Shown here piece after piece: positions 2,961-28,664 of a DNA stretch of 64,000 bases. The notes beneath the pieces are model-generated. The model ran no database searches. It was not told the origin of the DNA and worked only from the letters and a program-made list of their open reading frames with translations. Each line of letters opens with the position of its first letter. Positions within the stretch are counted from its first letter, which is position 1. A program made the translations under genes and the position numbers. This DNA is from Pelagibius sp. Alg239-R121 (GTDB lineage Bacteria > Pseudomonadota > Alphaproteobacteria > Kiloniellales > Kiloniellaceae), in assembly GCF_947331435.1 (NCBI RefSeq), contig NZ_CAMZOF010000004.1, forward strand, positions 1 to 64,000, in the 5' to 3' direction.

Positions 2961-3854
2961 TCAGGGCGCTCGACCCGCTTCGTTTAGGATCCAGGTGACG
3001 AACTTCTTTACGGCTGGAATCTTCATGCGATTGGCTGGTGCAATGATGTAATAGGCATAACTGTCGAGACGGGCGTCAAAAGGGCAGACGAGCTGGCCGC
3101 TGTTCAGATCATCTTCGATGAGTGAAGGGCAAACCAGGGCAAAGCCCTCGCCGGCAATTGCGGCACTATGGCGAACGTTCGAATCTTCGAAGAAGAGCTT
3201 GCCACCGGCCCAGAGATTGGGCTCACCCGCGGCAGTCAGCCATTCTTGCCAGCTTCGCTCATCGTTTTCGTGCAGAAGCTTATGCTTTGCCAGATCGCTG
3301 GGCTTGGTAACCGTCATTTCACCCTTAAGGATGTCAGGACTGCAAGCAGGGCTCAAATCACCTGGCCAGAGCAGGCGCGCATGTGTTGGAACTTCGCTGA
3401 CATGCAGCCATTCGATCGCGACATGGATATTTGGATTTCCGAAGTCGGCAGGGCCATTGTGGTGGAAAAAGCGGACGTCGAGACCCGGAAGCTTACGCCA
3501 AAGGCGGCTCATACGCGGACCGAGCCAGCGAGCGGCAAAGTGTGAACGAAGCGAAACCCCGAGAGGTGAGGCGGTCGTTCGCGCTGCAACATCGGCTGCG
3601 CCCTGTCGGATCAAGCTGAAAGCTTGGGAGAGATAATCGAAGAGAATCTGGCCTTCTGGCGTCAATCCGAATTTCTTGCTGTTACGTTCTAGGAGATCCG
3701 CATTCATGAAGTCTTCGAGATTACGCAGCTGATGGCTGACTGCGGACGATGTTACGCTCAGTTCTTCGGCGGCCTTTTGAAAGCTTTGATGCCGGGCGAC
3801 CGCTTCAAAAGCGCGAAGGGCGTTGAGGGGAGGTAGCACGTCCTTAGATCCCAA
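2961..3854 (-). CDS. LysR-family regulator, GcvA type
   Basis: A 297-residue LysR regulator. The winged helix-turn-helix is at the N-terminus (LNALRAFEAVARHQSFQKAA and then SSAVSHQLRNLE), followed by a substrate-binding effector domain with the GcvA-like ARWLGPRMSRL and DLAKHKLLHE segments. It lies immediately upstream of, and on the same strand as, the Rieske oxygenase, glyoxalase and cupin genes, with about 150 bp to the Rieske start, so it is the natural candidate to control them. GcvA-type regulators in alphaproteobacteria usually respond to small metabolites; the effector here cannot be read from sequence. There is no close divergent partner: the next gene left of its promoter is a PEP-CTERM-like protein on the same strand. 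Confidence 0.9.
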   Translation of the reverse strand: MGSKDVLPPLNALRAFEAVARHQSFQKAAEELSVTSSAVSHQLRNLEDFMNADLLERNSKKFGLTPEGQILFDYLSQAFSLIRQGAADVAARTTASPLGVSLRSHFAARWLGPRMSRLWRKLPGLDVRFFHHNGPADFGNPNIHVAIEWLHVSEVPTHARLLWPGDLSPACSPDILKGEMTVTKPSDLAKHKLLHENDERSWQEWLTAAGEPNLWAGGKLFFEDSNVRHSAAIAGEGFALVCPSLIEDDLNSGQLVCPFDARLDSYAYYIIAPANRMKIPAVKKFVTWILNEAGRAP

Positions 3855-3995
3855 ATCCGCTTCGGCGCTGAGACGACCCTCAATGCCGGTGTCTGCGATC
3901 TTTCATTTCTTCAGGCTCAAGGTCAAACCAAGAAAGTGCCGGCGACCCATTCAGGTCACCGGCATATAAGTTTGCCGACAAAAGAATGCGGTCTT

Positions 3996-4799
3996 TCATG
4001 TGCGGAAAGCTAGGCGCTTCCTGGTTGCTGGCAGAGTCAAGAGTGCCAAGCTGAGCAAACCAAAGCCGAAGGATGCTAGAGATGCCGGTTCCGGTACACT
4101 GGCTGTTGGCGGCACGATCTGTGACAGGTCGCCGATGGTCATGTTGTCGAATGCGAAGATGTCACTTGTGGTGCTGTTGGCGAAGGTAAGTTGGGTGAAG
4201 GGTGAGTCGGTGATCAGGCCGAAAAAGAGAACCGATCCATCCGTACTGCCGCCGCTGCCGACCGTGTTACCGATGTCGAGGGATTCAGTAACGCCGTTCG
4301 CCAGAGTCAGGGACAGTTCACCGCCGAAATCACCAATGTCGATCCCGTAGAAGCCGAATGCCGCGATGCCGTTGTCGAAATCGATTTGGAAGTTGGCACC
4401 ATCCACATCGAGATATTGATCTCCGGAGATGGGATAACGCCCATAGCCATTGGTCCCGCTCGTGCGGTTGTTTATAACGATGTTCGAACCAGCGGGATTG
4501 GATAGGGTCGAAGTGATAGTCGAGCCCATGCTGCCGGGAAACGACAGTGCCAGAGATGAGACCGAGCCAGAAGAGAAACTCTCAAACTCTTCGGTGCCCG
4601 TCCCGCTTAAATTTGAGAGAAACTCTGCCGCTGCTGCATCTGCGTTGGGTGTGCTGGACAGGCGCGTCGTGCGGCTGTTGTGGAGATCCTCACCAAAGAA
4701 CGTCCTTATAGGTTCGGCCTGGGCTGCAACCGCCAGTGCGGCCATGGCCGTGCAACCGAGCACTGTACGGATGGCTATGCGTTTAAATTTTTTTCTCAC
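3996..4799 (-). CDS. Secreted protein with PEP-CTERM-like sorting tail
   Basis: A 267-residue exported protein. A basic start and hydrophobic core (TVLGCTAMAALAVAAQA) form a signal peptide, with cleavage expected after AQA. The mature part is Ser/Thr/Gly/Asn-rich and beta-strand-like (ITSTLSNPAGSNIVINN, GSTDGSVLFFG), with a single Cys only in the signal. The C-terminus has VPEPASL, a hydrophobic helix (FGFGLLSLALLTL) and a basic tail (ATRKRLAFRT), the tripartite PEP-CTERM signal recognised by exosortase. The family is generally linked to exopolysaccharide and biofilm. No exosortase (EpsH/XrtA) is in the window, so the sorting enzyme must be elsewhere. It stands alone between the LysR gene and a non-coding gap. 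Confidence 0.8.
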   Translation of the reverse strand: MRKKFKRIAIRTVLGCTAMAALAVAAQAEPIRTFFGEDLHNSRTTRLSSTPNADAAAAEFLSNLSGTGTEEFESFSSGSVSSLALSFPGSMGSTITSTLSNPAGSNIVINNRTSGTNGYGRYPISGDQYLDVDGANFQIDFDNGIAAFGFYGIDIGDFGGELSLTLANGVTESLDIGNTVGSGGSTDGSVLFFGLITDSPFTQLTFANSTTSDIFAFDNMTIGDLSQIVPPTASVPEPASLASFGFGLLSLALLTLPATRKRLAFRT

Positions 4800-15198: not shown

Positions 15199-16467
15199 AT
15201 GGTTGCGAAAAAACGGACGGCGACGCCTCGGGCTACTGCCAAGGCTAAACCGGCAAAAGTAACGAAGGCCGCTGCGAAACCAGCTGCTCGTAAGACGGCT
15301 GCTGCTAAAAAGCCAGTCGCTAAGAAAACCGTTGCTGCTAAGAAGCCAGTCGCTAAGAAGGCTGTAGCTAAGAAGCCAGTCGTCAAAAAGACTGCTGCTA
15401 AAAAGCCGGTCGTCAAGAAGGCTGTAGCTAAGAAGCCGGTCGCCAAGAAGACTGCGGCTAAGAAGCCAGTCGCCAAGAAGACTGCGGCTAAGAAGCCAGT
15501 CGCCAAGAAGACTGCAGCTAAGAAGCCTGTAGCCAAGAAGACTGCGGCTAAGAAGCCAGTAGCAAAGAAGACTGCAGCTAAGAAGCCGGTCGCCAAGAAG
15601 TCTGCTGCTAAGAAGCCAGTCGCTAAGAAGTCTGCTGCTAAGAAGCCAGTCGCTAAGAAGACTGCTGCTAAGAAGCCAGTCGCCAAGAAGACTGCAGCTA
15701 AGAAGCCGGTCGCCAAGAAGACTGCAGCTAAGAAGCCAGTCGCCAAGAAGACTGCAGCTAAGAAGCCAGTCGCTAAGAAGACTGCTGCTAAGAAGCCAGT
15801 AGCTAAGAAGCCTGCTGCTAAGAAGCCGGTAGCAAAGAAGACTGCGGCCAAGAAGCCGGTTGCTAAGAAGGCTGCAGCTAAGAAGCCCGCTGCTAAGAAG
15901 ACAGATGCTAACAAGACTGCAGCCAAGAAGCCGGCTGCTAAGAAGGCCGCTGCTAAGAAGCCAGTTGCTCGCAAGACGGCAGCCAAGAAGCCAGCTGCTA
16001 AGAAGGCCGCTGCTAAGAAGCCAGTTGCTCGCAAGACGGCAGCCAAGAAGCCAGCTGCTAAGAAGGCCGCTGCTAAGAAGCCAGTTGCTCGCAAGACTGC
16101 AGCCAAGAAGCCGGTTGCTAAAAAGGCCGCTGCTAAGAAGCCAGTTGCCCGCAAGACGGCAGCCAAGAAGCCGGCCGCTAAGAAGGCCGCTGCTAAGAAG
16201 CCAGTTGCTCGTAAGACGGCAGCCAAGAAGCCGGCTGCTAAGAAGGCCGCTGCTAAGAAGCCAGTTGCTCGCAAGACGGCAGCCAAGAAGCCTGCCGTTC
16301 GCAAGGTTGTCGCTAAGAAGCCGATGGCCAAGGCCGCTATTGCTAAGAAGCCGATTGCGCGTAAAGCTGTCACCAAGCGTCCGTCTGCTACTAAGGCTGC
16401 GGTCAAACGCCCAGTGTCGGTAAAACCCTTTCGTTATGTATGGTCGAATGGTGCTGTCAGCCGGTAA
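15199..16467 (+). CDS. Histone H1-like Lys/Ala-rich repeat protein
   Basis: A 422-residue, extremely basic protein built almost entirely of Lys, Ala, Pro, Val, Thr and Arg. After a short lead ([20 protein letters not shown]) the body is a decapeptide repeat of the [10 protein letters not shown] type to about residue 230. It then changes to a 20-residue unit alternating [10 protein letters not shown] with [10 protein letters not shown] to about residue 375. The tail ([19 protein letters not shown]) is non-repetitive and contains the only aromatic residues. It resembles the C-terminal domain of histone H1 and bacterial AlgP/Hc-type proteins, which bind DNA and condense or organise it. It is expected in the nucleoid. 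A perfect rho-independent terminator follows it. Copy number of repeats is likely to vary between strains. Confidence 0.88.
15961..16260 (+). repeat. Five in-register 60-bp tandem repeats inside the H1-like gene
   Basis: Five consecutive 60-base units, each beginning CCAGTTGC and ending GCTGCTAAGAAG, encode the 20-residue repeat. The first two units (15961-16020 and 16021-16080) are identical base for base and the others differ at a few positions. Upstream (15421-15840) the repeat period is 30 bases and the copies are more diverged. Recent unit duplication is the likely cause. Confidence 0.95.
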
Positions 16468-19109: not shown

Positions 19110-19667
19110 ATGTTCAATAGATTGTCAGATCCGAGGTTGGCAGTTTTCCTTGACCATTACCTGGAGGTGCGGGGCGAGCGTACCATGCCGAGCCGCCAAG
19201 ATATCGATGCGCTCCGGCTAGGTCCGGTTTTGCCTTTTATCTGGCTGAGTGACTATGAAGCGGCGCACGACACCTTTCGCTACCGGCTGGCTGGCGAGGA
19301 AGTAAATGCGGTGTTCGGCTCGCGGATTACCGGAAAGCTGTTGTCTGAAATTGTGAAAGGCGGGCGTTTCCCGACCGTTAACGAACTCTTCCTGAGGGTA
19401 GTGAACGAGAAACTGGCGCTGCACGCAGAAGGCCCAATCTATCGTTGTACTGATCGTATGACTTTGGGGGAGCGCCTAGTTCTGCCATTGTCCAGCGATG
19501 GTGGGACGGCCGACGGTTTGGTGGGCGTCACCGTGCGCGGTGATTCGATCGATCTTGTGAACAGTGCTCACTATCAGGAGCAGAAGTATGATTTTCTGCC
19601 GGTAGACGAACTCACAGAGCCCTCATCAAGTTTTCAGAGAAAAAGGGCAATCGGCAGCGGTTGTTGA
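19110..19667 (+). CDS. PAS_5-type PAS-domain protein
   Basis: A 185-residue cytoplasmic protein made of a single PAS-like domain of the alphaproteobacterial PAS_5 type. Family-like features are the opening LDHYLEVRGERTMPSRQDID, LGPVLPFIWLSDYE, FRYRLAGEEVNAVFGSRITG, and the strand-turn LVLPLSSDGGTADGLVGVTV. A second copy of the family sits at 34511-35083 (leftward). PAS_5 proteins lack an output domain and their partner is unknown. GGAG stands nine bases before the ATG. The neighbours are the DMT exporter and the HPr-rel-A cluster, with no clear operon link. Confidence 0.82.
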   Translation: MFNRLSDPRLAVFLDHYLEVRGERTMPSRQDIDALRLGPVLPFIWLSDYEAAHDTFRYRLAGEEVNAVFGSRITGKLLSEIVKGGRFPTVNELFLRVVNEKLALHAEGPIYRCTDRMTLGERLVLPLSSDGGTADGLVGVTVRGDSIDLVNSAHYQEQKYDFLPVDELTEPSSSFQRKRAIGSGC

Positions 19668-20191: not shown

Positions 20192-20683
20192 ATGGATCCG
20201 ACTTTGCATGGCAACGAGAGTGCCGGGTCTAGGAGTGAGGAGCAGATGGACGAGGCGCGAAAAGCGCGGCGCCGTCTATTGAAGCTTGGTGCAGCGAGTG
20301 CGCCGCTGGTGTTGACCTTTCGGCCGAGTTCGGCTTGGGCAAACTCGGCTGGCTGTCTTCTGCAGCACGGAAATCTGCCGATCCCGGGCCGAATCATTAA
20401 GGTCGACACATATTGGCGGCCGATTCCCGACTATTACGGCTCTGGCTACGGTTACACGACCTACGACAATGGCTCTAACAGCGGTTATAGCGATAGTGGC
20501 TATAATAGCGGTTACAGCTACGATCAGAGTCAGTACCGCAGACGGGTGACCTACAAGACGATCAGGATAAGACAAAGAGTCGGTCACGTGGCTGATGCTG
20601 ATATGCGGCACAGCAAGCTTCGCGCGCTGGTTTACAATGACAACATGGGAATGTCGTGCTTGAACTCGATTACGACGTTCTAG
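20192..20683 (+). CDS. Tat-type exported Gly/Tyr-rich protein of the HPr-rel-A cluster
   Basis: A 163-residue protein. The N-terminus has an unusually long basic lead ending in A25-RRR-LLKLG (R26-R28), then a hydrophobic stretch (AASAPLVLTFRPSSAWA) and a probable cut after A50. This fits a Tat-like signal. The mature part starts with NSAGC54, then a Gly/Tyr/Ser/Asn-rich low-complexity stretch (residues 81-115, GYGYTTYDNGSNSGYS), a basic region (YRRRVTYKTIRIRQRV) and a last Cys at 156 (GMSCLNSITTF). I do not know its function. It precedes the PqqD-like, HPr-kinase-like and nucleotidyltransferase genes. TAAGGAG precedes ATG 20192 by ten bases. A strong terminator separates it from the other genes, as expected for a more abundant product. 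Confidence 0.75.
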   Translation: MDPTLHGNESAGSRSEEQMDEARKARRRLLKLGAASAPLVLTFRPSSAWANSAGCLLQHGNLPIPGRIIKVDTYWRPIPDYYGSGYGYTTYDNGSNSGYSDSGYNSGYSYDQSQYRRRVTYKTIRIRQRVGHVADADMRHSKLRALVYNDNMGMSCLNSITTF

Positions 20684-20735
20684 CAAGATAGCCTTGACGT
20701 GATCTCTGGAATCAGAGCATTGACGGTTTGGGGAG

Positions 20736-20773
20736 CGGGCGTCGGCCGATTATCGGCCGCGCCCGTTATTTTT
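20736..20773 (+). terminator. Terminator or attenuator inside the HPr-rel-A operon
   Basis: CGGGCG-bulged T-CGGCCGA (20736-20749) pairs with TCGGCCGCGCCCG (20753-20765), a 13-base-pair stem with one bulged T and a three-base loop, followed by TTATTTTT. It ends or attenuates transcription after the exported-protein gene and directly precedes the GTG of the PqqD-like gene. Confidence 0.85.
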
Positions 20774-20775
20774 CA

Positions 20776-21072
20776 GTGATTGAAGCCTCTACAGTCTGGC
20801 ATCTTCCAGAACCCGGCAGTCTTGTCTGGCGGTCTTTCGACTCCTATTCGCTGCTTTTCAACGAGCGTTCGGGCGACACCCACGTGCTTGATCCCCTGTC
20901 ACGCGAAATTCTGGATCTTCTGATGGAGGCTCCGCACGACGAGACCTCTCTGGTTCGCGAGTTAAGCAGCCTGATGGAAGGGCAGGATCCCGCGAAGCTT
21001 GAGGCGGCCATCCATGAGACCCTCGAAGCTTTTGATTCTGCCGGCTTGATAATTCCAGCATATTTTTCTTAA
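20776..21072 (+). CDS. PqqD-like protein, HPr-rel-A system
   Basis: A 98-residue PqqD-fold protein. The mid-section SYSLLFNERSGDTHVLDPLS and REILDLLMEA is the recognisable PqqD motif, and the C-terminus is a helical tail (KLEAAIHETLEAFDSAGLI). PqqD proteins bind and present peptides to modifying enzymes in PQQ and lasso-type systems; the HPr-rel-A subfamily is defined by its gene neighbourhood. The start is placed at GTG 20776, after the terminator hairpin, because an upstream frame begins inside the stem-loop. No clear ribosome site is visible. The downstream ATPase starts 24 bases later. Confidence 0.75.
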   Translation: MIEASTVWHLPEPGSLVWRSFDSYSLLFNERSGDTHVLDPLSREILDLLMEAPHDETSLVRELSSLMEGQDPAKLEAAIHETLEAFDSAGLIIPAYFS

Positions 21073-21096
21073 TCCTCACGGTGTTATAAGGGCTCC

Positions 21097-22062
21097 GTGA
21101 ATACAACGGATCGAACAATCTCGCCGCAACATCGTGCGGAGGTCATGCGTGGGCTGCGTCGCGGCACGCTGAAGTTCAAGGTCGGCCCATTCGTGGCGCG
21201 AATCGGTACGACCTATCCTCTACTGCAGCAGGATTTTCTGGACATTTATGAAGGCTATCCTCTGGCAGCGCCCGAGGACTTCGTCCATTTCAATCTGAAG
21301 GTCGGCCCGGTTTCACTGCTTCGGCGCTGGTTTAGACCTAAGGTGATTGCAGATGGTGGGTTCGTTGCCTCACCGTTCGTTCCCTTACCCGGCGATCTTG
21401 CTATCTTGGCGCTTGAAATGGGATTGAACTGGCAGGTCGGCACGAAATCCGACCAATTTCTGATCTTTCACTCGGGGGTCGTTGCCAAGGATTTTGAGCC
21501 ATCGGCAACCGGCGAGGTTCGGCCCAGTCGCGCAGTGCTGATGGCCGGGCAGTCCGGGGCCGGAAAAAGCACTCTGACCGCCGGCCTTGCTTACAACGGC
21601 TGGCGCCTTTTCTCCGACGAGTTTGCGCTGATGGATACCAGCGATCTACAGCTTTATCCCTATCCCCGGCCGATCTCGCTAAAGAACCAATCTATCGAAG
21701 TTATGGTAGAGCGATTGGGTGAGGAGGTTTTCAGCCGTCCATACCTGGATACGCCCAAGGGAACCATCCGGTACCTCAAGGCGCCGGGGGACAGCCTGCG
21801 CAATGGGGATAGGCCCGCAAGGTTGGACTTGGTGGTTTTCCCGGAGTACAGCCCTGGCGCGCCGGCCCAGGTGGCCGAATTCGAAGGTGCGGAGGCTTTC
21901 GCGATGCTGCGCGGCGCGAGCGTCAATTGCGATCGTCTGGGCCAGGCGGCCTTTGATGCGATCTCCGATCTCACCGGACGCTGCAAATTCTTTCACTTGC
22001 AATACGATACGCTCGACATGGCTATGCGTATGGTGGAAGACCTGATGGAGGAGGCGGCATGA
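21097..22062 (+). CDS. HprK-related kinase A
   Basis: A 321-residue P-loop protein of the HprK-related kinase A family, named for its resemblance to HPr serine kinase. The Walker A is G151-QSGAGKST (residues 151-159), followed by LTAGLAYNGWRLFSDEFALMD, where S-D-E-F (173-176) corresponds to the HprK Asp-Asp region. The N-terminal 130 residues are a domain of unknown role. The downstream loop DRPARLDLVVFPEYSP and the C-terminal helical part are family-like. HPr itself is not encoded here. The phosphate acceptor is unknown. GTG 21097 follows AAGGG. Its last codons overlap the nucleotidyltransferase start (ATGA), so these two are translationally coupled. Confidence 0.85.
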   Translation: MNTTDRTISPQHRAEVMRGLRRGTLKFKVGPFVARIGTTYPLLQQDFLDIYEGYPLAAPEDFVHFNLKVGPVSLLRRWFRPKVIADGGFVASPFVPLPGDLAILALEMGLNWQVGTKSDQFLIFHSGVVAKDFEPSATGEVRPSRAVLMAGQSGAGKSTLTAGLAYNGWRLFSDEFALMDTSDLQLYPYPRPISLKNQSIEVMVERLGEEVFSRPYLDTPKGTIRYLKAPGDSLRNGDRPARLDLVVFPEYSPGAPAQVAEFEGAEAFAMLRGASVNCDRLGQAAFDAISDLTGRCKFFHLQYDTLDMAMRMVEDLMEEAA

Positions 22063-23210
22063 AAGGCCTGCCGGCAGATCTGAAAACGCTGCTGGTGGCC
22101 CCGCATATGGCTGGGGGCTGGTCTGCCGAGCGTTGGTCCCGCGTAGCCTATCTTGCGCAGGCTGCTGGTGTTTTGACACGCATAAGTGTCGACTTGACCG
22201 AAGCAGGAAAACGGACCGGATTGCCGCAGGGTCTGGAAGGGTGCTTGTTGTCGGCCGAACGCAATGGCGCGCGCAACCAGGTTCGGCTGTCGTGGGAAAT
22301 GGATCGGATCAAGCGTGTCTTTTGGGACCGCGACATAAAGATTGTACTGTTAAAAGGGGCGGCCTATCTGGCAGGCGACATTCCCTGTACGCGGGGCCGC
22401 CTGAGTTCGGATATGGACATCCTGGTGGCCAAGGATGAACTTGCCGGTGTGGAAGCGACCCTGCTGGATGCCGGCTGGGTTTCAGCCAAGGAGATTCAAG
22501 GCGACGCGGAGGATTATGACGACCTCTATTACCGCCGATGGATGCACGAACTGCCGCCGCTGGTTCATGAAGGCCGTGGCACTGTTATTGATGTCCACCA
22601 CACAATCCTGCCCCCCACAGGCCGGGTAACGGCTGATGGCAGCGAATTGCTTGAGCTTGCGGTGCCGGTTGAATCTCTTGCGGCAACAGAAGTCGAGGCG
22701 GCAAACGATCCGGCAGAACGTTCGCGACAAGGTTACTATGTCCTCTGCGATACCGATATGTTGCTGCATTCAACTGTCCATCTTTTTCAAGATGGTGAGA
22801 TCCGCGGCGGTTTGCGGGACCTCGTCGATCAACGGGATATGATTGCCCATTTTGCGGATCGGCCGGGTTTCTGGGATCGCCTGATTGCACGTGCGGAATA
22901 CCTGGGGCTGGGGCGCCCCCTGTTCTACAGTCTCCGGTACGCTGAGGCCTTGCTCGATGCGCCGGTTCCCGAGCCAGCGCTGAAAGCCTCTCAGCGTTTT
23001 GCGCCTCCGCTTCCGGTACGTTTGCTCATGGACCTTTTGGTGCCGCGCGCCCTGACTCCGACCTATCTTTTCGACTCCAACCGGGTTGTGAATTTCGCTG
23101 GTGAGTTACTTTATATGCGTTCGCATTGGCTGCGCATGCCGCCAGTCATGCTGGCTCGCCATTTAGCAATCAAAGCTTGGCGAAGAGCCGGCGGAACAAA
23201 GACCGCATAA
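22059..23210 (+). CDS. Nucleotidyltransferase-family protein, HPr-rel-A system
   Basis: A 383-residue member of the NTP_transf_5-like nucleotidyltransferase family. The active-site region is IVLLKGAAYL followed by GRLSSDMDILV, where K99-G100 and the S117-D118-M119-D120 run give the two metal-binding Asp. A later VIDVHHTILPP holds the third acidic residue. The C-terminal half is helical (TVHLFQDGEIRGGLRDLVDQ). No substrate is known; family members may nucleotidylate a protein, a peptide or a small molecule. It overlaps the HprK-like gene by four bases and ends with GGTKTA. A strong stem-loop at 23288-23313 follows. Together with the PqqD-like protein it suggests modification of the exported Gly/Tyr-rich protein or of another peptide. 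Confidence 0.85.
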   Translation: MKGLPADLKTLLVAPHMAGGWSAERWSRVAYLAQAAGVLTRISVDLTEAGKRTGLPQGLEGCLLSAERNGARNQVRLSWEMDRIKRVFWDRDIKIVLLKGAAYLAGDIPCTRGRLSSDMDILVAKDELAGVEATLLDAGWVSAKEIQGDAEDYDDLYYRRWMHELPPLVHEGRGTVIDVHHTILPPTGRVTADGSELLELAVPVESLAATEVEAANDPAERSRQGYYVLCDTDMLLHSTVHLFQDGEIRGGLRDLVDQRDMIAHFADRPGFWDRLIARAEYLGLGRPLFYSLRYAEALLDAPVPEPALKASQRFAPPLPVRLLMDLLVPRALTPTYLFDSNRVVNFAGELLYMRSHWLRMPPVMLARHLAIKAWRRAGGTKTA

Positions 23211-23462: not shown

Positions 23463-23819
23463 ATGGTGGTGTCGGGCATTTTTTCTTCCGTCGCGGCGGC
23501 GGTGCTGATCGCGAACATGCCTCTGAGCGGAGAGACCTGGCCACCTTACATGACTGGGGAGCGGCTGCTTGTGGCTTGCGGAAGTGAAGACCCGGCGGAG
23601 AAAGGACTCTGCATTGGTTACATCCTGGGGGTCGCAGATGTTTTGGGTGGTCCTGGTGCCAAGGTCGACGGTATCTATGCCTGTCTGCCGGGCGGAGAGA
23701 CGACCGAGGAACTCGTCGAACTCGTGAAGGACTATCTGGCTGCCAACAGGCAACTTGCTAACTTAAAGGCGGACGGTTTGGTAGCCTACGCCTTGTCACT
23801 GTCTTTTCCTTGTGAATGA
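23463..23819 (+). CDS. Rap1a/Tai-family protein, exported
   Basis: A 118-residue exported protein. The signal peptide (VVSGIFSSVAAAVLIANMPL) is followed by TWPPYMTGERLLVACGSEDP, C50 and IGYILGVADVLGG, the pattern of the Rap1a/Tai immunity family, in which cysteines form disulphides in the periplasm. A late KADGLVAYALSLSFPCE contains the last Cys. Members of the family block T6SS amidase effectors, but orphan copies are common and may have other roles. GGGGAGACC stands directly before the ATG at 23463; the longer frame upstream lacks this. No effector or T6SS gene is in the window. Confidence 0.78.
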   Translation: MVVSGIFSSVAAAVLIANMPLSGETWPPYMTGERLLVACGSEDPAEKGLCIGYILGVADVLGGPGAKVDGIYACLPGGETTEELVELVKDYLAANRQLANLKADGLVAYALSLSFPCE

Positions 23820-23852: not shown

Positions 23853-24809
23853 TCACTCCCGCCGCCCGCCTGCGAGCGTAATGACGCCGACGATAATGAC
23901 GCCGGTCAGGAGCAGGCGAATGCCGGCGCTGAGGCCGAAGGTGTTGAGCATGGTCACCAACAGAAACATGAAAAGCGCCGCGCCCCAGATACCCGGGAGG
24001 TTGGCGAAGCCTCCGGCAACAGAGGTTCCACCAATCACCACGACGGCGATAGAGGCGAGCAGATATTCCGCGCCCATGTTCAAGGACGCACCCCCGGAAA
24101 ACCCAGAGAGCAAATACCCGCAGAGACCTGCAAGCACAGCCGATTGAACGTAGGTTGCCAGGCGAATAATGTCGACCTTGACGCCCGCCAGTTCTGCCGC
24201 ACGTGCGTTTTGCCCGATGGCATGGACCGAACGTCCGAATACTGTGCGATGAAGTACGACACTCATAACGACGGCAAGAAGGACGACGCAGAAAGCGAGA
24301 ATGGGAAAACCGGCAATCTTCGTCGTCGTAAAGTCAGCCAGGAGTTCCGGTGGCTTGATCTTTATGCCACGTCCATAGGCGATGGCGCAGGACTGTACCA
24401 GGAAACTCGATGAGAGGGTGGCGATGATCGGTGGGATACGTAGAGCCCGGATCAGTCCGTAGTTGAATATTCCGACCAGCAGGCCGCAGATCAACGCGAT
24501 CACAAGTCCAGGCAGGATCATGACATCCTGACTATCCATGATCTTCATGGAAACCGCGCCGGCGAAGGTCATGGTGGCTGGAATGGAAAGATCGACGTTA
24601 CCGGGGCCGAGCGTGATGACGTACATCTGGCCGATGCCGACGATGACCGAAAAGGTTGCGAAGGCCAAGGCGGCGGACAGAATTTCCCCTGCGCCGGTTC
24701 CACCGGTAAAGAGGATCGTTGCAAGCCAAACAAGGAACGCGCCCAAAAAGGCCCAGATCCAGGGCTTCTCTGAGACCGTCCTGATTCGTTTGGTGAGTAG
24801 AGCGGTCAT
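23853..24809 (-). CDS. Sugar ABC transporter permease
   Basis: A 318-residue membrane permease of the ribose/xylose (RbsC-like) family. Conserved stretches include VITLGPGNVDLSIPATMT, GLIRALRIPPIIATLSSSFL, FGRSVHAIGQNARAAELAGV, and the coupling-loop region near VVVIGGTSVAGGFANLPG. Its start overlaps the stop of the next gene upstream (ATGA), and the four importer genes lie on one strand with little or no spacing: binding protein, ATPase, permease, permease. It works with the partner permease at 24806-25744 as a heterodimer. Substrate is probably a pentose or related sugar, not resolvable from sequence alone. Confidence 0.92.
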   Translation of the reverse strand: MTALLTKRIRTVSEKPWIWAFLGAFLVWLATILFTGGTGAGEILSAALAFATFSVIVGIGQMYVITLGPGNVDLSIPATMTFAGAVSMKIMDSQDVMILPGLVIALICGLLVGIFNYGLIRALRIPPIIATLSSSFLVQSCAIAYGRGIKIKPPELLADFTTTKIAGFPILAFCVVLLAVVMSVVLHRTVFGRSVHAIGQNARAAELAGVKVDIIRLATYVQSAVLAGLCGYLLSGFSGGASLNMGAEYLLASIAVVVIGGTSVAGGFANLPGIWGAALFMFLLVTMLNTFGLSAGIRLLLTGVIIVGVITLAGGRRE

Positions 24810-25744
24810 TTTGCACCGGTCCGGTTGATCACCACCCTGAGCGCCAGAACGATGATGAGGATCGCACCCTGAGCGCCGATCTGCCAGTCAGGCGAAATCT
24901 TCAGGAAGGATAGAAAGGAGCCCGCCAGTGTCAGGGTCATAGCGCCCAACACTGCGCCGACCGGTGAAATGCGGCCTCCGACGAATTCGCCACCGCCCAG
25001 GATGACGCCTGCGATTGACAGCAGTGTGTAGCGCAGCGCGATGTTGGCATCGGCAGAGGTGGTCAGGCCAATTAGCGAGATCCCGCTTAACACGCCAAAG
25101 AAACCAGCCAGAGCATACATGGTCATTTTGGCTTTCAGGATCGACCAACCCGCGCGCGCCACGGAACGTGGATTGCCGCCGACACCACGGAGCACTGTTC
25201 CGTAGGACGAACGCATCAGAGCCAGATGGACAACGAACGCAACCAGCGCCGAAGCGTATATGGTTGCGGGAAGGCCGGGTGCCTTGAAGGTCATGGCTGC
25301 ACGCACCCAGTCGGGAGCTTTTCCACCTGGCGTCGGCAGGACCAGCAACGCCAGACCGAGCCAGAAAAACGACATGCCGAGAGTGACCACGATCGAGGGC
25401 AAGTTGCGCAGATGGATTAATGCGCCCAATGCCGCGTAGGCCAGGATACAAAGCAGCAGAACGGCAGCCCCTAGAAGGGGCGCTTCGTTCAACCAGGTCG
25501 CGCCAACGCAAGCAACGAAGCCGACGAACGCGCCGATCCCCAGGTCAAGATCGTTTACCGTGATGACGCACATCTGCGCAAGCGTCGCGAAGGCGATCGG
25601 CAAGGCGAGATTCAGCAGCAAATTGAGCCCGAAATAGCTCATGGCGCGCGGTTGCAGATAGAAGATGGCGATCAGAATAACCGTCAGCGAAAAGGCGGGA
25701 AGCAGGCTTCGAAGGAGGCGGGGTGAGGGGAGAAAGGTGCTCAC
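24806..25744 (-). CDS. Sugar ABC transporter permease
   Basis: A 312-residue permease partner of the RbsC family. Visible stretches are YFGLNLLLNLALPIAFATL, QMCVITVNDLDLGIGAFVGF, SSYGTVLRGVGGNPRSVARAGW and ILGGGEFVGGRISPVGAVLG. The start is the GTG at 25744 (VSTFLPSP), which overlaps the ATPase stop in a GTGA arrangement; the frame open to 25915 lies inside the ATPase gene. The end overlaps the second permease. The two permeases are divergent in sequence, so they form a heterodimeric channel as in some xylose and autoinducer-2 type importers. Confidence 0.9.
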   Translation of the reverse strand: MSTFLPSPRLLRSLLPAFSLTVILIAIFYLQPRAMSYFGLNLLLNLALPIAFATLAQMCVITVNDLDLGIGAFVGFVACVGATWLNEAPLLGAAVLLLCILAYAALGALIHLRNLPSIVVTLGMSFFWLGLALLVLPTPGGKAPDWVRAAMTFKAPGLPATIYASALVAFVVHLALMRSSYGTVLRGVGGNPRSVARAGWSILKAKMTMYALAGFFGVLSGISLIGLTTSADANIALRYTLLSIAGVILGGGEFVGGRISPVGAVLGAMTLTLAGSFLSFLKISPDWQIGAQGAILIIVLALRVVINRTGAK

Positions 25745-27252
25745 GATGCAGGAGCCTTCGCTGACGAATGACTCTTGGACTGGTCTTCGAAGGAAGCGTG
25801 GAGCACCTTTTGTTCGGTGACCTCTGCTCCCGCGAGATCGGCCACGATGGTACCATTGCGGAACACGTAGATATGATCGCAGTGCGCCAACTCGTCCATC
25901 TCGGTTGTGTACCACACGAAGGTTCGTCCCAAGCCGACCTCTTCGCGGATCATCTCGTAAACCTCCTGCTTCGTGCCGATATCGACACCGCGCATCGGAT
26001 CATCCATCAGGATAATCTCGGCGTTCGAAGCCAATGCCCGCGCAAAGAGCGCTTTTTGCTGATTACCGCCGGAGAGGGAGAGAATGTTGTTGTTCACGTC
26101 CGGTGTGCGGATTGCGATTTTGCGCTTCCAGTCTGCTGCGAGTTGCGCTTCGGCCTTGGGATCGATCAGGCCGCCACGGGTCAGTTGGCGCATGGAGCCA
26201 ATGACAATGTTCATGGCAATCGACCAGAGCGGAAAGACACCGTCCACCTGCCGGTCCCCGGGGACAAGTGCCATCGGAACCGACTCTTCTCTCAACGCCG
26301 GTCCTGTGCAGCCCTTGTTACGATAGACATCAAGCAGGGCATCCGTCTGTCCATGACCGCCAAGGCCTGCCAGCCCGACAATCTCACCGCGGTAGGCAAG
26401 CAGCCGATGACCGTCGCTTTGCCCCTTGGGCTGCAGTGACACCAGCACTTGCTCTCCTGACTGGCGAATATCGGAAGTTCGTTGCGTGCCGTCCTGTTCT
26501 TTGGCGACACTTCCCATGGCTTCGACAAGATTGGTCCTCGTAAAGGCGCTGGCTTCCCGGTCTTCCACGATGCCGCCGTCACGCATGACGACGACCCGGT
26601 GGCTGGTTTGAAGAATCTCCTCCAGCAGGTGCGAAATCAGTATGCAGGCACCGCCTTGGTCGACGAAATTCCGGACGTGTTCAAGAAGTTGCCGCGCGAT
26701 GACTGCGTCGAGCGAGGACGTTGGCTCATCCAGGATCACCAAGCGGATTGGGCTGTCGACCTTGGTAAAGGCACGCGCGATTTCAACCATCTGACGCTTG
26801 GCGATGGAGAGGTCCCCAACCAGCGCATCCGGATCAATGCCGTGACCGGGGAAGATTTCCTGCAGCTTGTTGGAAATGAGCGCGCGTGCCCGTGCTTTCC
26901 AACCCACGCCCTTTATCGCCGGATGCAGGATGCGGGCATTCTCGGCAACCGTCAGGTTTGGACACAACGACAACTCCTGAAAGACGCAGCGGATGCCGTT
27001 TGCTTGTGCCTGGTTCACACCGTAACCCGGCAGGACGCTAGCCGCTGTTTCGAATTTGAGGTTCCCCTGCGAGGGGCGTTGTGTGCCTGCCAGAATCGAA
27101 ATGAGGGTGGACTTGCCGGCGCCATTGTGACCGACGATCCCCAGGACCTGACCCGTGAGAATCTCAAGATCGATACTGCCCAAGGCCTGGACGGCGCCGA
27201 AAGTCTTGCAGACACCGTCCATCGTAATCAATCGTTCTTGTGACTCGAACAC
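25741..27252 (-). CDS. Sugar ABC transporter ATPase with two nucleotide-binding domains
   Basis: A 503-residue duplicated ABC ATPase of the RbsA/XylG family. The first domain has a full Walker A (GHNGAGKST), the signature variant LSIAKRQMVEIARA and Walker B (LVILDEPTSSLD). In the second the Walker A is degenerate (GLGGHGQTD) while the signature is LSGGNQQK with ILMDDPMRGVD. That asymmetry is normal for sugar-importer ATPases. The start is a GTG at 27252, preceded by GGGAGCAGG. It sits between the binding-protein gene (58-base gap) and the first permease (four-base overlap). It energises import through both permeases. Confidence 0.93.
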   Translation of the reverse strand: MFESQERLITMDGVCKTFGAVQALGSIDLEILTGQVLGIVGHNGAGKSTLISILAGTQRPSQGNLKFETAASVLPGYGVNQAQANGIRCVFQELSLCPNLTVAENARILHPAIKGVGWKARARALISNKLQEIFPGHGIDPDALVGDLSIAKRQMVEIARAFTKVDSPIRLVILDEPTSSLDAVIARQLLEHVRNFVDQGGACILISHLLEEILQTSHRVVVMRDGGIVEDREASAFTRTNLVEAMGSVAKEQDGTQRTSDIRQSGEQVLVSLQPKGQSDGHRLLAYRGEIVGLAGLGGHGQTDALLDVYRNKGCTGPALREESVPMALVPGDRQVDGVFPLWSIAMNIVIGSMRQLTRGGLIDPKAEAQLAADWKRKIAIRTPDVNNNILSLSGGNQQKALFARALASNAEIILMDDPMRGVDIGTKQEVYEMIREEVGLGRTFVWYTTEMDELAHCDHIYVFRNGTIVADLAGAEVTEQKVLHASFEDQSKSHSSAKAPAS

Positions 27253-27310
27253 CCTGCTCCCTCAAAATTTACGCCGTTCGGGTTTAGGATATTCTGCGGG
27301 ACGCGATCGA

Positions 27311-28330
27311 TTATTCGCCCGCGATGACCTTTTTGGCGTCGTCTAACGAGTATTCAACATTGGCCACGCTGCCTACTTCGGTACCGGCCAGTTTTTCTTC
27401 CAGGTCATCCTGGTCTACGCGCAGGAAGGGGACAACCAGTTCCTTGGGTACATCGGCACCATCGAGGATCTGTTGGGCGACCCAGAACGCCAGAGTGGAA
27501 ACGCCAGGGGCAATCGAGACGGACATTGTCTTATAGCCGTTGGCGTCCTTTTGCTCCTTCCACCACTTCAATTCATCCTGACGGTTACCCATGATGATCA
27601 ATGGCGTTGGCCGGTCGGCTGCTTTGAATGCCTGCGCTGCGCCATAACCGTCGCCGCCTTGCGTTACCACGCCGGTGATCTCCGGCAACGACGGCAGGAT
27701 ACCTGCGACGGCTTTCTGCGCGACGTCCTGCGCCCAGTCGCCGTGAACCGAACCGACGATTTTAAACTGAGGGTTTTCGGCGACGCCTTCATGAATACCG
27801 GCGCTGATTTCGTCGTCCACGAACACGCCTGCCAGGCCGCGGATTTCCAAAAGATTACCACCGTCCGGCATATGCTTGGCGAGATATATAAGCTGTTCTT
27901 TGCCCATCTGTTTAAAGTCGATCGCGATCCGCCAGGCACAGGGCGCTGTGACAATGCCGTCGAAGGAGATGACCTTGATTCCGGCGCTGCAGGCTTCTTC
28001 GACCGCACCGTTAAGTGCATCGGGTGAGGCCGCGTTGATGACGATCGCGTCGTAGCCCTGGAGAATCATATTCTGAATCTGAGCGGCCTGCTCGGTCACT
28101 TGATTTTCAGCGGTCGTGAAAGCGTCTGCAGATGAGACAATACCGTCTTTCACTGCCTGCGAAGTAATCTTTTCCCAGCTGTTGAGCATTGCCTGACGCC
28201 AGGAGTTGCCGGCGTAATTATTGGAGAGCGCAATTTTTTTGTCCGACGTATCGGCAACCGCCATCTGAGACCACGCGGTCAAGCCGATCGCAACACCAAG
28301 GGACAGCACCTTCAATTTTGAACGGATCAT
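27311..28330 (-). CDS. Sugar ABC transporter substrate-binding protein
   Basis: A 339-residue periplasmic-binding protein of the RbsB (PF13407) type. The signal peptide is MIRSKLKVLSLGVAIGL to AVA. The mature part shows KKIALSNNYAGNSWRQAMLN, MILQGYDAIVINAASPDALN, IKVISFDGIVTAPCAWRIAI, and GVVTQGGDGYGAAQAF. ATG 28330 is chosen because AAGGAGGAAATC precedes it directly; a longer frame upstream to 28513 lacks a signal at its start. It is the first gene of the importer operon. A palindrome related to the one before the SMP-30 gene lies about 300 bases upstream. Confidence 0.93.
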   Translation of the reverse strand: MIRSKLKVLSLGVAIGLTAWSQMAVADTSDKKIALSNNYAGNSWRQAMLNSWEKITSQAVKDGIVSSADAFTTAENQVTEQAAQIQNMILQGYDAIVINAASPDALNGAVEEACSAGIKVISFDGIVTAPCAWRIAIDFKQMGKEQLIYLAKHMPDGGNLLEIRGLAGVFVDDEISAGIHEGVAENPQFKIVGSVHGDWAQDVAQKAVAGILPSLPEITGVVTQGGDGYGAAQAFKAADRPTPLIIMGNRQDELKWWKEQKDANGYKTMSVSIAPGVSTLAFWVAQQILDGADVPKELVVPFLRVDQDDLEEKLAGTEVGSVANVEYSLDDAKKVIAGE

Positions 28331-28664
28331 GATTTCCTCCTTGCTACAGCTTTGGGGCATCAACTTTCTGCAGTCCCGTGCGAAACGATCTCGGCTGGTT
28401 GGCCGTGGCAGTGATCGACAGGGATAGTTGCCCATCTTGATCGCCAATTTTTGAGGATGCTCGCAGCTGATGGCACTGAGTAACCAGGACGCGGTTTCCC
28501 CGTCCAGCTGCAATGGAGCCTCCCCGATTTGGCTTCGAAATGCTCTGCGGCATTTTGATTGAGGCTAAGAGAAGCATAGCTTGGCGTATGCGGCGCTTGT
28601 GGGAATGTTGTTACGCAAAATCGCCTCTCAGAGTGCGGGTTCCCGCAGTTGCTCGTGGGGTCAT
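28331..28664. other. Regulatory gap between response regulator and importer
   Basis: A 334-base gap between two leftward genes. It holds the importer promoter and, at its right edge, the palindrome TGCGG-GTTC-CCGCA. Nothing else was recognised. Confidence 0.5.
28634..28647. promoter_or_regulatory. TGCGG-N4-CCGCA operator candidate
   Basis: TGCGG (28634-28638), four bases, CCGCA (28643-28647). It is the same inverted repeat and spacing as the site at 30855-30868, so both may be bound by the LuxR-type regulator at 28665-29411. It lies about 300 bases upstream of the sugar-importer operon. Confidence 0.5.

Follow-up and report, generated by a model that had tools for sequence, protein, structure and literature searches.

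A Tat-signal exported protein as the probable client of HPr-rel-A gene clusters in Pelagibius and other Pseudomonadota

Background

HprK-like kinases that act on peptides have been described in the biosynthesis of lasso peptides and of linear polyphosphorylated peptides (LPPs). PadeK, ThcoK and SyanK are reported to (poly)phosphorylate the C-terminal Ser of lasso precursors, and in the PsmK/PsmN system of pseudomycoidin, PsmN is reported to be required for a hexose on the Ser phosphate (PMC9266682, PMC8498205). In the LPP system, LppK is described as phosphorylating Ser3 of the core, together with a recognition element (RRE) for ribosomally synthesized and post-translationally modified peptides (RiPPs) and a leader peptidase resembling signal peptidase (PMC13381572). 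The precursors of bufferins carry Sec signal peptides, a feature reported as unusual, with preliminary evidence for a role in recognition; in signal-peptide RiPPs of this kind, modified by multinuclear non-heme iron-dependent oxidative enzymes (MNIOs), the modification is on Cys (PMC12452194). Here we analyze a cluster of four genes at positions 20192-23210 of a 64,000-nucleotide stretch (the window) of the genome of Pelagibius sp. Alg239-R121 (contig NZ_CAMZOF010000004.1, positions 1 to 64,000). All on the plus strand, these genes encode, in order, an exported protein with a twin-arginine translocation (Tat) signal, here called the client, a PqqD-family protein, an HprK-related kinase and a nucleotidyltransferase.

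Clusters of this kind are named HPr-rel-A in NCBIfam (TIGR04352 plus TIGR04353), which has no family for the client. No mention of HPr-rel-A, TIGR04352, TIGR04353 or 'HprK-related kinase A' was found in the open-licence articles searched, and no such client was found among those on HprK-type kinases with PqqD, lasso peptides, RREs or exosortase, or on Tat with RiPPs, RREs or PqqD. The present analysis adds this client, describes its motifs and proposes a mechanism that is open to test. The cluster probably makes a decorated, Tat-exported protein, with the signal peptide doubling as a RiPP-like leader and the kinase and transferase decorating a motif Ser.

The window cluster compared with described systems

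The initial annotation of the window had recognized the four open reading frames (ORFs) and the kinds of the last three products, and all are in place. The client gene (20192..20683; ATG at 20192, stop codon at 20681-20683) encodes 163 amino acids of no known family, for which neither Pfam nor NCBIfam gives a match up to E 0.1. It is a real gene, because it is kept at the same position in three congeneric genomes and its ratio of nonsynonymous to synonymous differences (pN/pS) is 0.39-0.52 in five well separated congeneric pairs and 0.11 in the closest pair. Its signal peptide, RRRLLKLGAASAPLVLTFRPSSAWA (residues 26-50, 20267..20341), has a twin-arginine motif, a hydrophobic stretch and an AxA site, features of Tat substrates that were identified by sequence, not with a dedicated Tat predictor; cleavage, after AWA, was placed by eye. 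The PqqD-family protein (20776..21072, 98 amino acids, GTG start) scores 58.3 bits with TIGR04353 (cut-off 35) and also matches PF05402, whose members we take to be RREs, that is, peptide chaperones. The kinase (21097..22062, 321 amino acids) reaches 251.2 bits with TIGR04352 (cut-off 200), and with the adjoining PqqD protein it places the window cluster in HPr-rel-A. The nucleotidyltransferase (22059..23210, 383 amino acids) matches NTP_transf_5 (PF14907) at 165 bits, a family to which PsmN and LppN presumably belong; its start shares the four bases ATGA (22059-22062) with the kinase stop, as had been observed.

LPP loci, like the window, bring together a discrete RRE, an HprK-like kinase and an NTP transferase; their precursors have 35-200 amino acids with a conserved N-terminus and a variable remainder, their kinase targets a Ser near the leader, as in the class II clients described below, and a further likeness is that an enzyme resembling signal peptidase I cuts the leader (PMC13381572). 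However, neither this peptidase nor the MsbA-like exporter of the LPP system is among the Pfam-scanned neighbors of the window cluster, where the ATP-binding cassette (ABC) genes are of importer types; at other loci, this comparison covered the nearest gene on each side and the 25 leading families. The LPP leader motif YxxPxVLxHQxIxFETxxS is absent from our alignments A4 and A5, the YWRP of the window lying in an unconserved part, and LPPs are described in PMC13381572 as restricted to Bacillota. The leader here would be a Tat signal peptide.

Phosphorylated lasso peptides of the paeninodin and pseudomycoidin type have, like the window cluster, an HprK-like kinase, which there phosphorylates a C-terminal Ser, a nucleotidyltransferase, which there is associated with a hexose on this phosphate, and a PqqD-type B1 protein. 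They differ in their macrolactam cyclase and B2 peptidase, neither of which occurs in the window cluster, where only the PqqD and kinase genes lie between client and nucleotidyltransferase, or among its Pfam-scanned neighbors; their core is a lasso, whereas the client is an exported protein with Cys. Bufferins and oxazolins resemble the present system in that an export signal of the precursor is suggested to act in recognition and that clients are both short and long, but they use Sec instead of Tat, an MNIO with a DUF2063 partner, and Cys chemistry. The HprK/P enzymes of the phosphotransferase system are the closest solved sequence relatives of the kinase (1jb1, 2qmh and 1ko7), yet the window kinase scores 13 bits with TIGR00679, far below the cut-off of 240.

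Presence of the client at kinase loci

Genomes over the TIGR04352 cut-off numbered 17 among 98 relatives, 11 among 385 genomes of the class and 61 among 398 genomes of the phylum, in all 82 different genomes. A first set of loci consisted of wide DNA from 80 of these 82, the window counted as one, with G590 and G605 excluded for a partial kinase match. A second, named set was selected independently of the client by searching genome contigs with the kinase alignment A2; it contains the best 80 of at least 413 loci, mostly from Burkholderiales and other Pseudomonadota by record title, and includes Malonomonas rubra. The sets have no identical kinase in common.

The client lies inside the cluster in 74 of the 80 loci of the first set, 67 of them found by an iterated profile from the window protein (the weakest, in L133, at E 7e-3) and seven by eye. 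In the named set it is present in 79 of 80 loci, 58 by a Tat rule free of hidden Markov models (HMMs) and 21 by eye among the misses; one of the latter, in L194, begins as read within the signal, without the RR. Among other ORFs, 135 of 1905 (7 percent) also satisfy this rule, which was hence never used alone; a profile of the whole client found it in 50 of the 80 named loci. Thus, the proposal that a Tat-signal protein stands beside the kinase and PqqD held in the co-occurrence check set beforehand. The arrangement is not rigid: the client lies behind the nucleotidyltransferase gene in L034, and the cluster of L139 contains a gap of some 450 bases.

Truly client-free kinase loci were rejected for the first set, since the genomes of all six loci in question have a client elsewhere, that of G629 being a class I client about 163 kbp away. 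Five kinase loci of this set lack both client and PqqD, but in each case a class I client was found at another place in the genome (E 2e-12 to 7e-30). For four of the five, this distant client adjoins a PqqD gene above the cut-off; in the fifth, G508, the client and a PqqD match just under the cut-off are on separate contigs. The sole client-free named locus, L162, is also without PqqD; at a contig end of the same genome there is a class II match that is truncated and lacks the signal part.

The specificity of this association was examined with A5, a profile of 31 rows chosen as class I (the window client and 30 others). At E up to 1e-6, with the ten best first-look candidates scored per genome, A5 matched 50 of the 398 phylum genomes; 27 of these 50 had contributed profile rows. 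All 50 are among the 61 kinase genomes, and none of the 337 kinase-free genomes matched (Fisher p 3e-53, a statistic that ignores relatedness); two matching genomes, G526 and G548, have clients that fit neither Ser motif described below. For ten of the 11 kinase genomes without a match (G452, G455, G605, G681, G684, G706, G727, G746, G748, G753 and G777), loci were read and the clients classed as II, several by eye; G605, whose locus was unread, is the exception. Of the 98 relatives, 17 have the kinase, and A5 matches 11 of these at E up to 1e-6, always at the kinase locus. Two weak A5 matches with internal stops were also seen among the relatives, in G082 and on contig 13 of G000; the latter (113184-113567, E 1e-4, three internal stops) could be either a chance match or the decayed remains of a second copy.

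Together, these counts, and the PqqD gene beside the distant client in four of five genomes, strongly support the view of the initial annotation that PqqD, kinase and nucleotidyltransferase have the exported protein as their client. Because this type of client accompanies the kinase in nearly every genome examined, the results suggest that it is decorated by these enzymes ahead of export.

RiPP precursors are often overlooked in annotation, so that the true precursor might be an unannotated short peptide, with the Tat protein as a co-transcribed structural partner. We regard this as very improbable. There is little intergenic room for such a gene, the distance from client stop to PqqD stop having a median of 317 bases (147 loci), mostly filled by PqqD itself, and that from kinase stop to nucleotidyltransferase stop being at most 1500 bases in 139 of 148 loci; no systematic search for conserved short ORFs was made. 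In addition, the client of L118 is itself reduced to about 20 mature residues around SCLDSF.

Two classes of client and their Ser motifs

Two motifs were counted in 153 clients and in 200 shuffles, with the circularity that the patterns derive from the same data. The class I motif, [ST]-Cys-x-x-Ser-hydrophobic within 60 residues of the end, occurs in 48 clients (shuffle mean 1.1, maximum 5), and in 39 of the 48 it ends 0-5 residues before the stop. The class II motif, Cys-x(2,3)-Ser-[GA]-x(1,3)-Ser within 50 residues after the signal, occurs in 77 (shuffle mean 1.9, maximum 6), and no client has both. Cys47, Cys147 and Ser150 are invariant in A5 (31/31 each); in A7, an alignment of 63 class II clients, Ser48 and Ser52 are invariant (63/63 each) and a nearby Cys is present in 61 rows. 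The motif of the window client, SCLNSI (residues 155-160, 20654..20671), is of the class I type [ST]CxxS, with Cys156 and Ser159 in A5 columns 147 and 150.

The initial annotation had pointed to two Cys of the client, and these correspond to the two invariant class I Cys; Cys156 was correctly numbered, but the first, just after the signal peptide and in A5 column 47, is Cys55 (20354..20356) and not Cys54. It had also drawn attention to the Gly/Tyr/Ser-rich middle (about residues 79-118, 20426..20545). This segment exists, yet it varies even inside the genus and was rejected as the functional core; the signal peptide and the C-terminal [ST]CxxS are conserved instead. Also rejected were a lasso leader motif YxxPx(L)xxxG at YWRPIPDYYG, which is unconserved in the genus, and a reverse motif SLxC in short clients, which shows no excess (9/153 compared with a shuffle mean of 5.7).

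The invariance of Cys47 and Cys147, equal to that of Ser150, together with the Cys chemistry of the bufferins cited above, would fit a modification on Cys, or a joining of Cys and Ser, in which the kinase merely activates Ser for elimination or ligation. This appears distinctly unlikely to us: phosphorylation by the characterized relatives of the kinase is on Ser, the conserved gene set was not seen to include a lyase, cyclase or MNIO gene, and in class II the two Ser are present in 63 of 63 rows whereas the nearby Cys is present in 61.

Client size spans about 20 mature residues at the lower end and, at the upper, a folded domain to which Foldseek matched nothing in the PDB. An AlphaFold2 model of a class II client has a mean predicted local distance difference test (pLDDT) score of 80.6; residues 61-216 are mostly predicted with confidence, whereas the signal and the Ser stretch score low, and Foldseek found no match to this model in the PDB (best E 4.7), so that the predicted domain is possibly a new fold. 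Class II clients (that of L168 at 3492-4139, and others in L149-L228) have such a confidently predicted domain with C.G.[ST]PGYW..WP and AAxLNA. Of the 153 clients, 66 were scanned against Pfam and NCBIfam release 20, and no family there covers them; each library gave isolated single-protein matches (E 1e-3 to 6e-3), three of them to Tat-signal models.

The signal peptide

The two classes have little in common beyond the signal peptide. Its consensus is RRR.LLKG....P.I.TL.SG.ALA in class I and RRRF.KAG...GVLLTLASRP.L. in class II; Arg occupies A5 columns 15 and 16 in 30 and 31 of the 31 rows, and a Thr or Ser ends the hydrophobic stretch in all 31 A5 rows and all 63 A7 rows. A signal-only profile, A6, was made from 35 signal peptides, none from the tested genomes or the window genus, and no kinase of a tested locus shares more than 66% identity with a kinase of the training loci. 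In 12 of the 15 genomes tested, A6 ranks the client above every other site of the genome (E 2e-14 to 1e-3). In the 8.0-Mbp genome of the window, the client signal comes first at E 7.4e-6 and the next site has E 0.093; the best match in a control genome in which the kinase is never above the cut-off (G033) is 0.011. Over the 80 named loci, a signal HMM gave 59 matches, all of them clients, with none elsewhere among 5900 ORFs. To judge from these sequences, the signature exceeds what Tat export needs and looks like a leader read by an RRE.

Kinase and nucleotidyltransferase

Residues invariant in the kinase alignment A1 (35 diverse rows) include a His, the Walker Lys, Asp-Glu, a further Lys and an Asn. 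In the window kinase these comprise His125 (A1 column H116; 21469..21471), the Walker A sequence GQSGAGKST at residues 151-159 (21547..21573), exactly where it had been noted, and Asp174-Glu175 (D154 and E155; 21616..21621). The His, Walker Lys and Asp-Glu may correspond to the catalytic His-Lys-Asp-Asp of the lasso-tailoring and LPP kinases.

In the nucleotidyltransferase alignment A8 (50 rows), G-R-x(3)-D-x-D and D-x-H-H are invariant. The former (G113, R114, D118 and D120) includes the SDMD of the window protein (residues 117-120, 22407..22418), which we take from the fold to be catalytic. A structure search with its AlphaFold2 model (pLDDT 90.2) gave no match at E under 0.001; the best was MenT1 (8an5, E 3e-3, probability 1.0), followed by TglT, ANT(2''), LnuA and FKRP. 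These matches are weak but consistent, fit a predicted nucleotidyltransferase fold and leave the transferred group unfixed.

On a FastTree phylogeny of 160 kinases, in which roughly one inner branch in three is weak, the client labels I and II, some assigned by eye, need two changes; when each class is compared with all other rows, including unclassed ones, the numbers are seven (II) and six (I), against shuffled means of 50.6 and 42.2. This tracking of client class by kinase clade bears on another explanation, in which PqqD is a Tat-proofreading chaperone and the kinase and nucleotidyltransferase act elsewhere, for example on a sugar or polysaccharide intermediate, which the exported client would then bind or carry. 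The separation of kinase locus and client in five genomes speaks for it, as do the neighbors at other loci: ten group 1/4 glycosyltransferases and six polysaccharide export proteins upstream (56 scanned of 131), and 12 Asn_synthase matches downstream, best scored as XrtA/PEP-CTERM amidotransferases (54 scanned of 133). We nevertheless consider it unlikely, because the kinase clade tracks the client class, comparable trios of enzymes act on peptides, and the window locus itself has no polysaccharide genes among the Pfam-scanned neighbors of the cluster. The LPP and paeninodin loci of Bacilli are also reported to have an exopolysaccharide neighborhood (PMC13381572).

Seven loci (L097, L105, L106, L115, L119, L124 and L125) have an extra gene of about 345-755 amino acids between kinase and nucleotidyltransferase, which by eye resembles tetratricopeptide repeat (TPR) proteins in some, with an XrtA-type amidotransferase behind in several. 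A lasso cyclase was considered for this position and rejected, given the TPR-like look of the insert in some loci and the Asn_synthase that follows it, whose score points to an XrtA amidotransferase.

A proposed mechanism

In the mechanism that we favor, PqqD would bind the twin-arginine signal peptide of the client in the cytoplasm, hold the client back from export and present its core. The HprK-like kinase would phosphorylate, perhaps polyphosphorylate, the Ser of the core motif, which would be Ser159 of SCLNSI in the window and the Ser pair after the signal in class II, and the NTP_transf_5 enzyme would add a sugar, sugar-phosphate or nucleotide to the Ser phosphate. The finished client would leave through Tat, with its leader cut by ordinary signal peptidase; its two Cys may pair outside, and its role may lie at a polysaccharide surface. 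With a Tat signal as leader, a finished and possibly folded product could be exported, and a dedicated peptidase would be unneeded. The earlier suggestion of a new post-translational modification or secretion route was too strong: phosphorylation and glycosylation of lasso and LPP precursors are already known for these kinds of kinase and transferase, and the signal resembles an ordinary Tat signal.

Several observations weigh against this mechanism, in addition to the circularity of the motif counts. In the first set, PqqD was found by profile in only 69 of 80 loci (a small ORF of 62-92 amino acids takes its place, judged by position, in six more), and the nucleotidyltransferase gene also in 69; of the 11 loci without it, four or so are near a contig end, but seven have at least 4.4 kbp of downstream sequence, so that the nucleotidyltransferase step is not always linked. 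Each of the two genes was found in 79 of the 80 named loci. The client of L108 lies between PqqD and kinase on the opposite strand. Twenty-eight of the 153 clients strictly have neither motif, many of them being class II by other marks, and the signal profile A6 missed the client in three of 15 genomes (G072, G746 and G455). The YxxP leader motif of lasso peptides and LPPs is unconserved in clients, and LppN is reported as inactive in a heterologous host (PMC13381572). Judged from the alignments, the acceptor would be C-terminal in class I and N-terminal in class II, and one kinase family would need two geometries; the invariant Cys could be the target instead.

Whether these clients form a Tat-exported, RiPP-like class that is widespread in Pseudomonadota, with a PqqD/RRE protein that reads the Tat leader and withholds export until the kinase and the NTP_transf_5 enzyme have placed a phospho-sugar or phospho-nucleotide on the Ser of C-x(2,3)-S, seems to us evenly balanced. 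If true, a Tat signal peptide can at the same time serve as a RiPP leader, with an RRE as export gatekeeper, and HprK-like peptide kinases extend from the small cores of lasso peptides and LPPs to whole exported proteins, in many environmental Pseudomonadota and partly beside exopolysaccharide and exosortase genes.

Neighboring genes in the window

Directly 3' of the cluster, positions 23463-23819 encode an exported Rap1a-like protein (PF18602). Such a gene adjoins the cluster also in the congeneric L047 and is found in two of the 54 scanned downstream neighbors elsewhere; it may belong to the cluster in this genus. On the 5' side of the client lies a gene for a PAS_5 protein (19110-19667), weakly MopJ-like (44 bits, cut-off 200), which is upstream of the cluster in L047 too. 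A sugar-type ABC importer, consisting of two BPD_transp_2 permeases, an ATPase and a Peripla_BP_4 binding protein, is encoded on the other strand at 23853-28513, and its permeases are near the cluster also in the congeneric L044 and L046. Farther upstream, positions 15199-16467 encode a Lys/Ala/Pro-rich repeat protein of 422 amino acids of the histone H1-like HC2 family (PF07382); the reverse frames of this gene are also open and give rise to spurious ORFs.

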